Assembly (NCBI GenBank): GCA_002005505.1
Contig: KV908660.1
Location: forward strand, 32,544 to 96,543
Direction of reading: 5' to 3'
Source: Botryococcus braunii
Lineage: Eukaryota; Chlorophyta; Trebouxiophyceae
Length of the DNA: 64,000 nt
The notes under the pieces were generated by a model. That model was not told where the DNA came from and did not search any database. It saw nothing but the letters and a program-made list of their open reading frames with translations. The position numbers and the translations under genes are program-made. Shown here piece by piece: positions 49,478 to 64,000 of this stretch. The number at the start of each line of letters is the position of its first letter. The first letter of the stretch is position 1.

Positions 49478-50192
49478 TGTAAAAGGTTATGGGCAGTGGC
49501 GTATCCTGTAAGCAAGCAGACAGGTCGTAAGTTCGTGCCTCTCCAGCTACAGTCCTTGACGACTGTCTGCTCTTTAGACACATGCAACTGCATGAACAAG
49601 ACTGGCATCCTTATGTGCCCAGTATCTTTCCAAACCAGTTCCGTTACATGTTGATCTGTCAATGAGCATCTACACACGGATAAGCTCCTGACGGCTGAAA
49701 GCAAGTACCTTCCTATACTCAATCAAGACTCCGTCCCTTAGCTGTTTGGGAGACTTGATTGTCCACTAAGATGGTTCACTTACAAACAAGCAATCAAACA
49801 TAAACACATTACCAATACACACCCTGAGTCACCGCACCTGTAAGCAAGCAGACAGGTCGTAAGTTCGTGCCTCTCCAGCTACAGTCCTTGACGACTGTCT
49901 GCTCTTTAGACACATGCAACTGCATGAACAAGACTGGCATCCTTATGTGCCCAGTATCTTTCCAAACTATTAAAGCTGCGATCACCGCTCGACTATGCGG
50001 TGATCGCAGCTTTAATAGTCCTTTCACACTAACGCGTAATCTAAATCAGATTGTACCTCATGTTCGAAATAGACCTCATCCGAACGTGTCTTGAGGTACC
50101 TTATGTGGATAGTGGACCCGTATCCTAATAATGTACATTTGAAGATCACCTAAAGCACAAGGCATTCTATAATGTATGTTCACAACTCAACA
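49478..50192 (-). repeat. 5' LTR of copia I
   Basis: 715 bp, followed on the plus strand by GGGAT. It contains the same internal duplication as the 3' copy and a perfect hairpin at 49966-50019 that the 3' LTR lacks. Confidence 0.92.
49966..50019. repeat. Perfect 23-bp inverted repeat with 8-nt loop
   Basis: ACTATTAAAGCTGCGATCAC plus CGC pairs exactly with 49997-50019; the loop is TCGACTAT. In the 3' LTR only the right arm remains (near 43627-43660). Confidence 0.92.
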
Positions 50193-50197
50193 GGGAT

Positions 50198-51830
50198 CAA
50201 TGCAACCTCGATGGATGGGGACGGGAGGGCCCGCTCGGGCTCCATCACCCTCGGGTCTGACGGGTGTGACACCTTCTTGGAATTGTTGAAGGGTGCTTAC
50301 GCACATGATTCGTGGTTGGGAACAAGGGCAAATAGGAGAAAAGTTCACTTTACGGACGGGGTTTGGGAATTTGGAAGGGAGGGAAGAAAATATGTGCCTG
50401 CATTTTATGAAGTCCGGGATAAGGAAGGTCCTGTTGCTAGGAATCTGCGGCAGGACATATTGAAAGCTTTGCATGAACCTCCTTCTGTTGGTCATCCAGG
50501 CTTTGCGAAGATGTATGATCTAGTGAAGCGGGACTGGTGGTGGCCGGGAATGGCGGAGGATGTGCGGGAGTATGTGAAGTATTGTGATTCATGCCAGCGG
50601 GTGAAGGCCTCAAACCAGTTACCCGCAGGACTCTTACACCCTTTACAAATCCCCACAAGGAAATGGCAAAGCATCTCAATGGATTTCATCACGGGACTGC
50701 CTAAAAGCAAACACGGGCATAACGCAATATGGGTAGTGGTTGACAGGTTGAGCAAATGTGCCCACTTTGCCCCTACCACTACCAATGCAGATGCTTATGA
50801 AGTTGCTGTTCTGATGAGGGATAAAGTATGGAAGTATCACGGTTTCCCTGAGGAAATTGTTTCAGACCGAGATCCTCGGTTAGTGAATAATTTCATGAAC
50901 ACACTTCTAAGTCTGACGGGGTGCAAGCCAGCTCGAACTACGGCATATCATCCTCAGTCAGATGGTCAAACGGAACGGGTGAATAGGATCTTGGAAGATT
51001 TTCTGAAACACTATGTCAAGGATAACCCAAAGGAGTGGGAGGATTACCTTTCAGTGGCGGAATTTGCCTACAACAACTCTTGGCAAACTTCCCTAAACTC
51101 CACACCCTTCAGGTTAACATATGGGCAAGATCCAAATATACCGTTTGCGGTGGGACACATGGAGGGCACTAAGGTGGATAGGGCTGATCTCTTCATGAGA
51201 AAAATGCAAGACAAAATCACCCTTGCAAGGAAGTGTTTGCGTGCAGCTCAAGACCGTCAGACGGCCTATGCCAACCGGCATAGGAGGGAGGCCATCTACC
51301 AGGAAGGGGACTATGTCCTCCTTTCAACCCGTGCGGCCCCCACGCTAACTTCAAACAGATTCAGCAAGCTGCAGCCCAGGCACGTGGGACCCTTCAGGGT
51401 CATGGCGGTCACGCCCGACAACGTTAACTTCGTCACACTGGATCTTCCGGACCGGTTGGACATCCACCCCCGCATAAATGTCTGCTATTTGAAGCCATAC
51501 TGGACACGTGAGGAGGCGCAGTCGCGTGGATACTGCCCCCCAAAAGTCATCACCAAAGCGGATGGCACCACTCACCTGGAGTGGGTAGTGGATGCACTAG
51601 TCGATCACCAGCTGTTGCACGACAAGGATGGGTTCTCCTACTATTTTGAGGATGGCACACCCTTTCTCGAGTACCTTGTAAAGTGGGCAGGCCATGGGGC
51701 CACAGAGGACTCATGGGAATCCCAGGAGGCATTCGAGACCCATCCCGGGCTGGTTAATACCTATCATAGACTCCAGGGGCTCGCCCCGCCCATTTGGGAC
51801 CAGGTGGCGCTGCGCGACACGTTCCCTTGA
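50198..51830 (+). CDS. pol: Element D pol, part 2: integrase with chromodomain
   Basis: Resumes in frame after copia I. The integrase zinc region has HEPPSVGHPGFAKMYDLV ... CDSCQRV. The core has SMDFITGLPKSKHG (first Asp), VSDRDPRLVNNFMN (second Asp) and SDGQTERVNRILEDFL (Glu). The C-terminal part has RKLQPRHVGPF-type sequence and a chromodomain near 51650-51760 (FLEYLVKWAGHGATEDSW). It stops at 51830. All catalytic residues are present. The chromodomain places D among chromoviruses, whose integration is known to follow chromatin marks. Confidence 0.92.
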
Positions 51831-58449: not shown

Positions 58450-58454
58450 TTCAG

Positions 58455-58850
58455 GAATCAGCTCGTACTTTCTAGAAAAGTGGTGACGTGTAATGTTTAG
58501 CGTCTCTTCATTGTGAACTTCATGTTCAGAATCTGCTTGATTTAACCAGAACTACCTAGATTCTCTTTACGTGTCAAGTGATCCTGCTTTGTGGATTACG
58601 TGGCAGCTCAGAATCAGTTGTAACCTGGGCACCAGAGGGACCTGATCCCTCTGGACTCTTCGTTCCAGCGGGGTCCTGAAAGGTCCAGAATTCCCGCGTA
58701 AGTTCGGGGAATACTATTTAAGGGCGACCAGCCGTCCTCTAAACCACGCTGTGCTAGGACGTTAGGTGAGGGAAACCTCTGTCGTGAGTCTTTGTAACCG
58801 CACAAGTTTGAATCCCAACATTCCTGTTAGCCTCGTCCGTGACCACTGCG
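58455..58850 (+). repeat. Probable 5' LTR of element J, second part
   Basis: Directly continues the sequence left of D. It has a TATA-like TATTTAAG at 58715-58722 followed by a CCTCTAAACCACGCTGTG stretch, as in LTR promoters. The LTR end and the PBS were not found; the right limit given is arbitrary. Confidence 0.35.
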
Positions 58851-60575
58851 TTAATGTGCCTGACCGTTTGTCCTTGAATGTCCTAGTCGTAACTTGATCT
58901 ACCCCACCTGTCTGTCGTAACTCGTCGCAATTGTGAAGCAACACCTCTGAAACTCAGTGCCAGTATTGATTTGGATATCTTCTATCAAATTTTAATAGTA
59001 TCAGTGAGCATTCCACCCTTTTTTGCAAGAACCGAAGATCAATACCAAGGTCTAGCCGTCCCACCTTCGTGCAGTAACAATCAATTTACCTGTTCCAGTA
59101 CCTATAGTAATTCATAGTTTATCATATAGTCGTTCATAAATTTCATTTAACAAGCGCCGCAAGTAATTTGGTACGAAGCCGCCACACCTAAGTCGTAACA
59201 TCACGCATAGTAGTACCAACCCGGATCCTGAAAAGGAGCATCAAACCCTAACAGTAGGATTAGAATAAAATAGATTAACACCTTTGAAAGTGAAATATCT
59301 GATTTATAACTCCAGTTAAGTTCATACTCCAGCCGTCAACCCCCAAAGTCCGATAGCCCGGCCTGCGATAGGCCGTAAGCCGGTGACCCCGACTACAAAT
59401 CCCCGACTAAAACATCCGAGACTTGAACCGCAGCAGTCTCCGATTGTAACCTCCAGCCTTCGAATCGCACAATCGTAAGTACCAGTAATCCAGTAATCCG
59501 GTAATCCAGGTCTCAAGGCCGAATCCTTGAGCGGCGATCCGCATAATTTACCTTGATACAGAAGCCGCAGCCCAGCTATTACTAACGGTAGTTGCATAAT
59601 CTCCGATTTCAATCAGAAAAAAATTTGTCTACCTTGAGTAACGGGAACCCTATATGGCTGCACCGTCCAGGGAGGTTTTAGCGCGTTGAATTAGTCAGCG
59701 CCTGAGCTCTCCGAATCTGGCCTTCTGCGCAGATTTGCCGTGTTTATAGCACCACGTGAGTACCGTATTTGGAATCAGTTGAGCTTTGTCCGCTTATTGA
59801 ACTGGGTATACCCCTTTAGGAGGGGCTTGATTACATTCCGTGTGTCGCAGGAACTACAGCAAAGACATCAGCAACAACCGTTTGCAGCGAAACCAAATAT
59901 TAGGAAAGTTCAGTTTGGAGCACCCCATCATCGTACTGCAGAAGTTAGTTGAGATAATTTGATAGCTTTCAGCACTTGTTTTCTGTTTAAATACATTTGA
60001 GAAATAGTAAAGACTATACTTTTGGAATCGCGTTTGCATAATTGTTTCTTTTTCGAAATCTTAGCAACATCAAAGATCGCGGTTTCGTGATACACATCTA
60101 TGGAAATACATAATATTTCGATCTCCTCTTTAGAAGCAAGGTCTGATTTCACATTAAAAGTACTTCCAGAGTTCATCTGCACTGTTTGCATTTATGAGTT
60201 GAAGGTCCGAGGTTGGCGTAACTAGCTGAATTGAGACTCGAGCTTCTGCAAATCCTGAAATACTCATAGTTTGTTTTATCGTTTGTTGGAGAATTAAAAT
60301 TATTAAGAAGCTTCAGAGTACCCTGATTTGAAGGAAGACTTTTCTGCAACTCCATTATCAGAGTTAGTGAGATGCCCCTTTAGGAGGGGTCTGATTACAC
60401 TCCGTTTGTTGAACAGGCACCCCTACAGCCAGCTATAATAGCAGAATCAGCATTTAAGTATATAGCAGTATCAACATTATCTGACATTAGTTAGTATTGT
60501 GAACACTCGAGCGTAATCTCTAACAGTGTGTTAGGCAATCTAGAGCATAAGACCTTGTTTGATTGAACAATTATC
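58851..60575 (+). other. Element J leader, non-coding
   Basis: About 1.7 kb with no recognisable protein. A 35-bp block beginning CCCCTTTAGGAGGGG (self-complementary ends) occurs at 59811-59845 and again at 60375-60409. Short CAGTAATCC repeats occur near 59485-59510. No clear PBS; TGGTACGAAGCCG at 59169 is a weak candidate. Confidence 0.5.
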
Positions 60576-63507
60576 ATGGCAGACATACAAGCCCCAGTAC
60601 GTTTGGAATTTTTCTATGGAAAGCCTACAGAGGACCCTTTTCAGTGGTTAGAGTCTTTTGAACTTTTTCTTGAGATCAACCAAGTAGTGGGTGATCGGGT
60701 TTTACGTTTTGTTAAGCATGCCATGCGCGAGGAGGCTTACACATGGTTCCGTGCGAATCAAGATGATATACATGACTGGGATGACTGTAAAGAGGCCTTC
60801 CTTGAACGATTTGGCCTTGATGAAGACACCCTTATGTTAAAGTTAGACACATGTGCACAACTGTCAAATGAGACCGTTCGCAGCTACGCTGACCGATACA
60901 AGAAATTAGTGGGTTATTTGCAGAACTCTCTGCCACCCAGGATGGTGACCCAGCTATTTGTGAAAGGCTTAGTGCCCCATCTTAGGGAGCGAGTACAGAT
61001 GACCTACCCCGGCAATGGAGCGTTAGCCGACATAATACGTTTGGCTGCAAACTATGAACAGACCTTTGGGCATGCACCATTAGGAGGTATGTACGTTAAT
61101 CAAAACACAGAAGTACAAGCACGCGAGAGAAGTGAGCCTTGGACTCGCCGCCCCATTGACAATGTGGATCAGCGAGCGCCACGCGCGCCGCAGCAGCAAA
61201 ATCAAAGGGAGAACAACAGAGATAACAAAGAAAATAGAAACTGGCCGCGTCAGCGAGATTTCCCCGAAAGGCGTAATCAGCCGCAACCAGCAGCACCGCC
61301 AAGACAGATTGCACCAGCTAATCCACTTAGGGAGGCACCTCTTCCGCCACCCGCAACCGATATAGATACGCTTACCCGAGAAATGGAGAGACTCAGAATT
61401 CAAATTGCAGAATTACAGAGGCCCATGCCCGCCGCTAATTTTACTCAGTTTCATGAGGACCCAGCCGAGGAGGAACAGTCCCAAGTAAGGATGATGTATG
61501 ATGGGTTTACTGACCCATTCCCTGTCTATGCCACCAAAAGACCAGCCGAAAATCCACCTGAATTGGATCAGCCACTGCTACGCCGCCGGCCCAACAATGT
61601 GCAAAACACCACTATGGACCCCAGACCTTCAAATAGGCCAGCTGCAACAGGGCCTAATGGACCTTCCGCACCAGCAAATAATCCTTCAACTGCTGCACCG
61701 CCTACGCCAGCCCCAGTACCTGCTTTTCCCAGGAGGGCACCTGCGCCGCGCCCGCCAGTCGACTTAGGGGGACTGCCACCACTTCCAGATCCTCCCCGGC
61801 CGGCGTACCGAAGACCCCCAGTAGTGCCAGCCCCTTCAAGCGAGCCAATCCAACAAATAAAAGGCTTACCTATGAAGCTGACAGTACAATCTTATTTGAA
61901 TCATATTAGTGAGGAGGAATTTCAAAGATCCATCCAAGAGCTACATGCGTCCCGCCAACAATTCCAGCGAAGCAAGCAAACCACTTCAACACCGCCAAGA
62001 GCTGCGGAGGCAGAGCTTGTAGTAATCTCTAGTGACACCTCCGAGAGCCCCTCAGCCAGCGATACGCCCGAGGCGCCGCGTGTCCAACAACATCTGCAAC
62101 GCAACCTGATCAGCACCACTGTAGCCACAGTCCCTATTATTCTTAACAATACTATCTTTGACGAAGGAATTATCGACACTGGAGCAACAAATACCATGAT
62201 ATCGCAATCTGCAGCTAGACAATTGGGCATGCTTAACCAGATCGAGCCTTGTAGACTTAAGTACTCTTGTGCTGATGGCAACATGTCTGCCCCATGGGGC
62301 ATAATTAGAGAGCTACCAGTAGGTTTTGATGGATTGATATTCCCAATTGACGTCTGTGTTAGTGGGGCGACAAACTACGATGTACTGCTGGGTACCGATT
62401 GGCTAACACAAGCCCATGCCGAGATCAGCTTTGCCAAGTCAGAAATGTCATATAAAATAGACCCTAACCTCATTGGGAAAGTCCCTATAACAGTACTGCC
62501 ATCTGATAAGACTTTTAATCGTTATTGTGTTATGCGGGCTCCCGTTGAGAACCTGGGAGACCCGGAGGGACCGGAGGGACCAGCACTGCCAGAAGTAATT
62601 TATTTCGACGAGAGCGCCTCTGACACCTCTGCGCCCGAGGATTCAAGCGAAGAAGAAGCCACTAGTGAAGAGATTGCCAGTTTACCGTCTGAAGAAGAAT
62701 ACCCAGACCTTATTGAGGAGCCACAAGCAATGCAAGTAGACTTTTTAAATTCCACCGCCGCCGACATCACCCTTGCAGAGGGACCATCTCTCTCGCTGCC
62801 TTCAACAAATAACACCGAAGACTGGATGCTAGAAAAGACTATATTCAAAGACATTGAGGAGCAATTCGGCGCATTTGACCTTGACGCATGCTGCGATCAG
62901 GAGGGCCGTAACTCTCAATTGCCTCACTTTTGGACACCCCAGCAAGACTGTTTGCAGCAAGATTGGACCCACAAGAACATTTACTGCAACCCACCTTTTT
63001 CAAAAGCAATGGAGATTGTGCAGCACGGCCTCACATGTTATGATAGCAGCCCAACCACGACGTCAGCCGTCCTTGTTCTACCATGGTGGCCTGAAGCCGC
63101 ATGGTTTCCCATAGTAATGGAGAAGTTCCAAATCGCTCGACAATATCCTCCAGGAGTGCAGCCGTTTACAGCCCCGGGACGATCCCCCAGCTCTTCTCGC
63201 ATGCGTGTGGGGCCTACCAGTTGGCCGGTGATGATTGTGAAGACCCCTGCACCCAACTTGACTGAAGACCCCGGCCTACAGAAATTGCCAGACATCCAAA
63301 TAATTGAAGAAGAGACAGACCACCTTGAGCCAGAAGAGGTTCCCCTGGGGACCAAGATTTTACCCGAGGAGCGCGAGCGCGCCCTTGGACTTGTTAAGGA
63401 GTACAGGGATGTGTTTTCCCCTGGCATTACGCAGCAACGTACTACTTTGATGCATCTTAGGATAGACCCCGGCTTGCCGCACCTTATCGCTGTCCCTGCA
63501 GAAGCAG
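60576..63507 (+). CDS. Element J Gag-protease-DNA methyltransferase-like polyprotein, 3' truncated
   Basis: One open frame. Residues 1-165 are a gypsy-type Gag core (LEFFYGKPTEDPFQWLESFE, EEAYTWFRANQ, VRSYADRYKKLVGYL, FVKGLVPHLRERV). No CCHC knuckle follows; residues about 180-450 are Q/N/R- and proline-rich. Aspartic protease has IDTGATNTMISQS (D at residue 534) and LLGTDWLTQAH. An acidic stretch spans about 660-720. Residues about 755-890 resemble phage-type N6-adenine methyltransferase: FDLDACCD (767-774), a tryptophan before NIYCNPPFSKAMEI (NPPF at 805-808, bases 62988-62999), VLVLPWWPEAAWF and SRMRVGPTSWPVMIVKT. The end (EYRDVFSPGITQ ... LRIDPGLPH) is the segment that leads into RT in gypsy elements. 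It is cut at 63507 by a copia LTR; the last few residues are not its own. Confidence 0.8.
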
Positions 63508-64000
63508 TGGTTATAAGCTTCTGAGTTCGGCGTTCCCTGTATGACCCGGCACGAGGGTGTTTAGCCCGGCGACACTCTTGTTGTATGTCGAGTAACAAGC
63601 AGTGGCGACTGTGAATGAGATGACTTGAATGGCAACAGTTAAGTAGCAAACACCCGAAGTGCTTTTGATGTCCCAATCAAGTCTTACAATGCTTATTGCT
63701 CTCTCTCATCACTCAGCAATTCAAACTACTCTATCTACGAAGTTACTGATAGTCTGCATTACCGATGTCCGATGAGCTAAGCAGTAGTACCTTTCTATTA
63801 CGCATTATCTAGACTCTTTCCTAATACATTGTTCTTGTGCCTGAGGTGTCCTGACAACAGTTTACCTGTATGACCCGGCACGAGGGTGTTTAGCCCGGCG
63901 ACACTCTTGTTGTATGTCGAGTAACAAGCAGTGGCGACTGTGAATGAGATGACTTGAATGGCAACAGTTAAGTAGCAAACACCCGAAGTGCTTTTGATGT
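63508..64000 (-). repeat. Copia LTR K, related to H, runs off the window
   Basis: Starts TGGTTATAAGCTTCTGAG and then follows the H LTR family with scattered differences. Both copies of the internal duplicated unit are seen (from about 63538 and 63866). Orientation is minus, so it is a 3' LTR of a minus-strand element or a solo LTR. AGCAG (63503-63507) would be its left target duplication. The outer end is outside the window. Confidence 0.8.

Follow-up and report, generated by a model that had tools for sequence, protein, structure and literature searches.

What does an adenine methyltransferase do inside a retrotransposon polyprotein? This question is raised by a locus of the green alga Botryococcus braunii, in a 64,000-nucleotide stretch of contig KV908660.1 (positions 32,544 to 96,543 of the forward strand; hereafter, the window). 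Within the gag-protease polyprotein of a Ty3/gypsy element, we found a predicted Dam-type N6-adenine methyltransferase domain, encoded at window positions 62814–63251 (+ strand). The polyprotein is a single open frame of 985 codons (60567–63524, + strand), along which Pfam places Retrotrans_gag (PF03732, E-value 2e-11), gag-asp_proteas (PF13975, E-value 3e-9) and then Dam (PF05869, amino acids 750–852, E-value 6.4e-16; 58.9 bits, the cut-off being 28.1). The original prediction, made from the letters of this stretch, had named four motifs, all of which are present in this one frame and in the order given: FDLDACCD (62874–62897), NPPF (62988–62999), VLVLPWWP (63069–63092) and SWPVMIVKT (63219–63245). 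Its span of 62840–63245 does hold these motifs, but the start at 62840 lies one base off frame and runs into stops; the true frame is that of 60567.

The Dam-like (PF05869) assignment was borne out by the profile search that the original prediction had proposed, and the window domain also matched phrog_111 "DNA methyltransferase" in PHROGs (E-value 8e-20). The match to NCBIfam TIGR01712, the phage N-6-adenine-methyltransferase equivalog, reached 48 bits and stayed below the cut-off of 97.05 bits; judged by these profiles, the element Dam is a relative of the phage enzyme and not that equivalog. With hhalign, the element Dam matched a phage protein at 96.6%. An AlphaFold2 model of the domain (predicted local distance difference test score, pLDDT, of 91) has a Rossmann-like fold of the S-adenosylmethionine-dependent methyltransferase type, and N6-adenine methyltransferases were the top-ranked solved folds in a VIA-align comparison with the Foldseek top 1000. 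NPP[YFW] is the catalytic motif of the Dam family; the window copy has the NPPF variant, and NPP is present in 18/18 aligned divergent rows. A chance match or frame artefact was ruled out by the E-value of 6e-16 and by 72 loci in the genome, and bacterial contamination by the fact that Dam shares one frame with gag and protease and that copies lie on many contigs.

The place of the domain in a complete element is seen in loci L011 (2000 amino acids) and L022 (2016 amino acids), each one open frame with the order gag, protease, Dam, reverse transcriptase (RT; PF00078, E-values 3e-36 and 5e-34, respectively), RNase H (PF17917), PHD finger, H2C2 zinc finger and integrase core. The earlier placement of Dam ahead of RT is thus correct for the family, in its full-length copies, and incorrect for the window copy, which has no RT. 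The protease–RT–RNase H–integrase order and the DDE integrase of L011 and L022 are those of Ty3/gypsy elements (Metaviridae); their best Pfam RT match is RVT_1, together with RT_RNaseH and rve, and the RT tree described below was made of gypsy rows only. A DIRS element was ruled out by the protease and integrase core, with no tyrosine recombinase among the Pfam matches. The PHD finger (PF00628, cut-off 24) lies at residues 1520–1564 of L011 (E-value 6e-11, 42.5 bits) and 1536–1580 of L022 (E-value 3e-11, 43.8 bits), and is a candidate histone reader, of another kind than the chromodomain, within a gypsy Pol. Flanking direct repeats, read as long terminal repeats (LTRs), are 99.5, 99.7 and 99.6% identical in L018, L019 and L026, respectively, which indicates recent insertion of those three. 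Repeats were less identical or partial in other loci, and 10 of the 20 searched loci showed none, although stretches of at most 9.9 kb may have been too short to contain both; TRF run on L031 found nothing.

In the scanned genome (G000; 176.1 Mb, 989 contigs), we counted at least 72 Dam loci, all above the PF05869 cut-off and all matching the L011 domain, so that the domain is kept in other copies as the original prediction required. They form two groups, A (window-like) and B, which are about 66% identical. The RT search, likewise a lower bound, returned 56 match rows of at least 71% identity, the next best being 48%, a gap that bounds the lineage sharply. Two of these rows, on C235, are pieces of one RT, leaving 55 places, and at 49 of them (50 of the 56 rows) Dam lies 315–748 bp upstream of RT. 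On C148, C259, C235 and C107, Dam lies on the same strand at 6.5–7.7 kb upstream of RT, a distance that nested insertion would produce; on C780 and C93, no same-strand Dam is close by. Counted from the Dam side, RT comes next at 49 of the 72 loci, an RT-less tail at 15, and neither within 1.2 kb at eight, the window among them. P0008, a protein of the EukProt set Botrbrau1, equals the L024 frame at 132/133 residues. Chlorophyll a/b-binding exons gave 35 matches in the same genome. LTR elements are described as predominant among class I elements of B. braunii race B in PMC11286282.

We also estimated selection as the ratio of non-synonymous to synonymous substitution rates (dN/dS) in 58 clean rows of the 72 Dam loci (18 A, 40 B), leaving out 14 broken or partial loci. 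Pooled Dam dN/dS was 0.186 in A (codon bootstrap 0.104–0.324) and 0.164 in B (0.107–0.243), with mean ratios of 0.183 and 0.117; a dN/dS of about 0.12–0.19, the measure that the original prediction had suggested taking, indicates purifying selection. Among the clean rows, FD[LI]DACCD is retained in 58/58, NPPF in 50/58 and VLVLPWWP in 54/58. By region (10 A-family and 9 B-family open frames), B-family dN/dS was 0.026 for protease, 0.164 for Dam, 0.098 for RT, 0.035 for RNase H, 0.166 for PHD, 0.069 for integrase (three pairs only) and 0.40 for the RNase H–PHD spacer. Dam is therefore constrained like a working part, as far as codon patterns tell, though less than protease or RNase H. Synonymous divergence in the B family (L024 numbering) falls from 0.3–0.5 in gag through Dam to about 0.1 across the post-Dam spacer, RT and RNase H, which points to recombination among copies at the Dam domain or shortly downstream of it.

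The window copy belongs to an RT-less subfamily and is broken by a nested insertion. Its nucleotide similarity to L011 continues from Dam through a spacer that leads to RT in full-length copies (63252–63467, + strand) and stops at 63467, and RT, RNase H, PHD and integrase are missing, the PHD finger also by Pfam. The next 44 bases (63468–63511, + strand) are the first part of the unrelated tail that stands in for these domains in L018, L012, L016, L017 and other RT-less copies. Element similarity stops at 63511, where the nested insertion begins (63512–64000 and past the window end, strand not assigned), and the tail resumes about 7.9 kb on, at G000:C390:103990. Compared with L011, L018 is 97.5% identical through Dam and then has a dissimilar stretch of about 1.1 kb replacing RT–RNase H–PHD–integrase; Pfam matches in the frames of L018, L014 and L012 are limited to gag-like, protease and Dam families.

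This subfamily amounts to a natural deletion experiment. Dam dN/dS in 14 RT-less rows was 0.192 (0.105–0.330), and in six of the RT-less rows the two tail halves had 0.81 and 0.61 against 0.136 for Dam. Constraint on Dam next to drift of the tail indicates that gag, protease and Dam were kept while the rest was lost. Among RT-less rows, singletons comprise 24 synonymous and 28 non-synonymous changes and shared variants 16 and 9; the deficit of amino-acid changes in shared variants, and not in singletons, is the pattern to be expected if selection acted while copies spread and fixed copies then decayed. The tail as a new functional domain was rejected (dN/dS 0.6–0.8, no Pfam match outside gag-like, protease and Dam).

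Relatives in public sets extend this arrangement beyond the genome. A protein search from L011 recovered P0001 (57% identity in the query region) and P0003 (41%), both of which have the complete architecture, as well as P0002, which has gag, protease and Dam but no RT. A search from P0003 returned 11 proteins: P0003 itself, P0009–P0017 (45–86% identity) and P0018. According to precomputed domains, gag, protease, Dam, RT, RNase H, PHD and integrase are all present in P0003, P0009–P0013 and P0015–P0017, while P0014 begins later and is without gag and protease; domain order was seen by Pfam for P0003, P0012, P0014 and P0017. The Dam match precedes the RT match in 11/11 RT-bearing relatives (P0001, P0003 and P0009–P0017). 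All 11 also carry the PHD finger PF00628, between RNase H and integrase wherever order was scanned. The second Dam half of P0002 (residues 808–902) is far from both A and B, lacking LFTAP and TRWPV, and the longer own-genome matches of this half are only 36–48% identical, which suggests a recombinant or a third Dam variant.

P0018, a chromodomain gypsy polyprotein with 115 member sequences, differs in order: protease, RT, RNase H, Dam, integrase, chromodomain. Its Dam (residues 1300–1449) was missed by Pfam and found by profile (E-value 2e-22; hhalign 99.3%). Around residues 2030–2230, there is a weak likeness to C5 cytosine methyltransferases (a DNMT2-type tRNA enzyme in PDB, E-value 0.006; PADLOC MTase_II, E-value 0.002), and its C-terminal stretch had no Pfam match at an E-value of 1; this element possibly carries both an adenine and a cytosine enzyme, going by these matches.

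The Dam tree contained 29 rows, 20 from retroelements and nine from phages, viral contigs and bacteria; strict-pattern scans had yielded four IMG/VR loci (three in the tree, L094 being omitted because its match line was the same as that of L093) and one bacterial locus. The retroelement rows split from the other nine at 100/100 on a long branch, and the 17 protease–Dam–RT rows (of which P0002 and the fragment P0005 are without RT) fall on one side of a weak branch (76/54). In the RT tree, a branch at 99/98 sets 14 protease–Dam–RT gypsies against P0018 and three gypsies of the window that lack Dam; P0018 drew a long-branch warning. Botryococcus-like rows stand apart from P0003-like rows in both trees; P0017 is on the Botryococcus side in the RT tree and unplaced in the Dam tree. 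Taken together, the topologies favour a single old acquisition of Dam ahead of RT, probably followed by co-inheritance, with P0018 as an arrangement apart. In P0004 (1,010-base contig) and P0007 (673-base contig), Dam directly follows an RNase H-like end, and the contigs show no RT. Dam after RNase H is the DIRS order, and P0004 and P0007 likely belong to DIRS.

Building on the domain itself, where it lies, its occurrence next to almost all RTs found, the selection that keeps it and the predicted methyltransferase fold, we propose that Dam is an integral domain of a Ty3/gypsy Pol ordered gag–protease–Dam–RT–RNase H–PHD–integrase, and that it methylates the element's own cDNA in cis as a disguise of permissive DNA. 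We hold this tentatively, with a chance falling just short of even. The element protease would free Dam within the virus-like particle, the freed enzyme would methylate adenines of fresh double-stranded cDNA in cis, and the methylated cDNA would integrate, partly guided by the PHD finger beside integrase. N6-methyladenine (6mA) might then give the new copy the look of permissive, expressed DNA rather than that of foreign or silent DNA. In Chlamydomonas, according to PMC12695648, 6mA marks expressed genes and 5-methylcytosine (5mC) is confined to transposons, a split under which a transposon-borne 6mA writer could delay silencing. De Mendoza and colleagues made a similar argument for cytosine enzymes in DIRS (PMC5890265). 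The best solved relatives of the PHD finger include KMT2C/MLL3, CHD4, KMT2D, ATXR5 and KDM5-type fingers. Several such fingers read unmodified histone H3 lysine 4, and no aromatic cage is apparent in the element finger. A 6mA writer acting on its own cDNA in the particle, together with a PHD histone reader beside integrase, might even form a self-marking kit. RT-less parasites of the family have lost RT, RNase H, PHD and integrase, yet Gag, protease and Dam persist in them under selection; on this reading, each element would mark its own nucleic acid, and the mark would be required in cis as Gag is. We regard this as possible but doubtful.

Several observations weigh against methylation of cDNA as a disguise. 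With the TIGR01712 match below its cut-off, the substrate specificity of the phage enzymes cannot be transferred to the element Dam. The closest solved fold to the modelled domain is PCIF1, an RNA rather than a DNA methyltransferase; the mark may thus be put on RNA, or PCIF1 and the retroelement Dam may have a mobile ancestor in common. NPPF is mutated in 8 of the 58 clean rows. Synonymous diversity in RT-less copies is 0.13 for Dam and 0.06–0.11 for the tail; as it is not lower in Dam, the Dam signal may partly predate RT loss or reflect recombination with full copies. PMC12695648 also reports that robust 6mA is confined to hosts with AMT1, no 6mA enrichment on Trichomonas transposons, and 5mC in chlorophyte gene bodies too, and the Chlamydomonas split may consequently not hold in Botryococcus. 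The host genome has MT-A70 exons at two loci, which may belong to RNA enzymes or to DNA enzymes such as AMT1.

The fold likeness to PCIF1 brings in the reading that Dam methylates the element's genomic RNA, at cap-adjacent or internal adenines, and thereby aids translation or packaging, as PCIF1 acts on host mRNA. We consider this unlikely, though less so than the alternatives that follow: the nearest sequence family is that of phage DNA methyltransferases (by PF05869, PHROG and hhalign), PCIF1_WW appeared in Pfam only at an E-value of 0.05, the PCIF1 family PF12237 scored 13.5–13.6 bits for the L024 and L011 domains (cut-off 31.1), and no additional RNA- or cap-binding domain was among the Pfam matches. 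A PCIF1-type gene was not found in the host genome, and control genomes were equally silent, hence this is no evidence of absence. That catalysis is dispensable, with Dam serving as a DNA- or RNA-binding or spacer part of the particle, would suit the changed NPPF rows, in which the domain frame is still open, and a Dam dN/dS exceeding that of protease (0.03–0.05) and RNase H. It is nevertheless improbable, as NPP is unchanged in all divergent rows and FD[LI]DACCD in all clean rows, each of the six NPPF variants is limited to one or two rows, as decaying copies would show, and B-family RT itself is at a dN/dS of 0.098.

We assign an equally small chance to action in trans, on the insertion target, rival elements or algal DNA viruses. 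An antiviral role for retrotransposon methylases is proposed in PMC6338049, and a PHD finger beside integrase could take the enzyme to target chromatin, but constraint in RT-less derivatives is more readily explained by a function tied to the particle of each element than by a benefit shared across the host. Least plausible is a passenger without a role, captured long ago and kept by chance or gene conversion. Blocks are indeed shared and recombination does occur, as the uneven synonymous divergence of the B family indicates; dN/dS, however, is clearly under 1 in family A as well as in family B (upper bootstrap limits below 0.33), and Dam persists in further proteins that are about 40–57% identical in the searched region.

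Methyltransferases in retrotransposons have been used to ask why mobile elements write marks usually tied to host control. As the original prediction stated, adenine enzymes are known from DIRS and cytosine enzymes from gypsy elements, in agreement with PMC3783388 and PMC5890265; what appears new is an adenine methyltransferase in a gypsy element with protease and integrase. No Dam-bearing Ty3/gypsy was noticed by title or abstract start among the open-access matches listed, and earlier notice in subscription papers or Repbase is possible. DIRS elements with Dam share the Pfam family PF05869 within a retroelement Pol, and P0004 and P0007 group with the element Dam in a strongly supported branch of retroelement Dam. 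As described in PMC3783388, DIRS elements comprise RT, RNase H, methyltransferase and tyrosine recombinase, without aspartic protease or DDE integrase, and the methyltransferase is found solely in DIRS among the fungal tyrosine recombinase elements studied there. The Botryococcus elements, in contrast, have protease and DDE integrase, with Dam ahead of RT. KnitGypsy-Dnmt3 of Klebsormidium nitens is likewise a gypsy Pol of a green-lineage alga with a DNA methyltransferase under purifying selection, but it carries a C5-cytosine Dnmt3, which has no structural relation to Dam (PMC5890265). Phage N-6-adenine-methyltransferases (PF05869, TIGR01712, PHROG 111) belong to the same domain family, with 457 of 50,697 phage records matching Dam (24–34% identity among the 25 matches listed); the five examined are separate small genes with NPPY, whereas retroelement Dam has NPPF or NPPW and a TRWPV end. 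PCIF1/CAPAM, which makes cap-adjacent N6,2′-O-dimethyladenosine (m6Am), is a host mRNA enzyme within a larger protein, and by sequence alone it bears no significant similarity to Dam. Chromodomain and Tudor gypsy elements (e.g., PMC12477816) also combine a gypsy Pol with a histone-reader module; their readers are C-terminal, unlike the Botryococcus PHD finger between RNase H and integrase. The Botryococcus elements that carry the adenine enzyme have the usual LTRs, protease and integrase; many of their copies keep an open frame, and in some the two LTRs are almost the same.

The remaining parts of the window copy, all on the + strand, begin with the 3′ part of its 5′ LTR (58450–59655), to which the 3′ LTR of L018 (7402–8604) aligns at 90% by blastn. 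A putative primer binding site (TGG...; 59655–59674) directly follows, in the equivalent place to L018 and L019, and is of low confidence. The gag region (60576–62165), with the PF03732 core at 60708–60971 and a proline-rich linker next, is followed by the aspartic protease (PF13975/PF08284; 62166–62411) and, before Dam, an acidic linker under weak constraint (62514–62801; dN/dS about 0.5 in family A). Elsewhere in the window, the 10 frames scanned out of 17 other long ones are gypsy and copia pieces, and positions 50154–51827 encode the integrase and chromodomain (PF00385) of a different gypsy element within a nest of such pieces. In the nested insertion at 63512–64000, the initial stretch of about 130 bases recurs, by eye, about 330 bases on (near 63540 and 63870).
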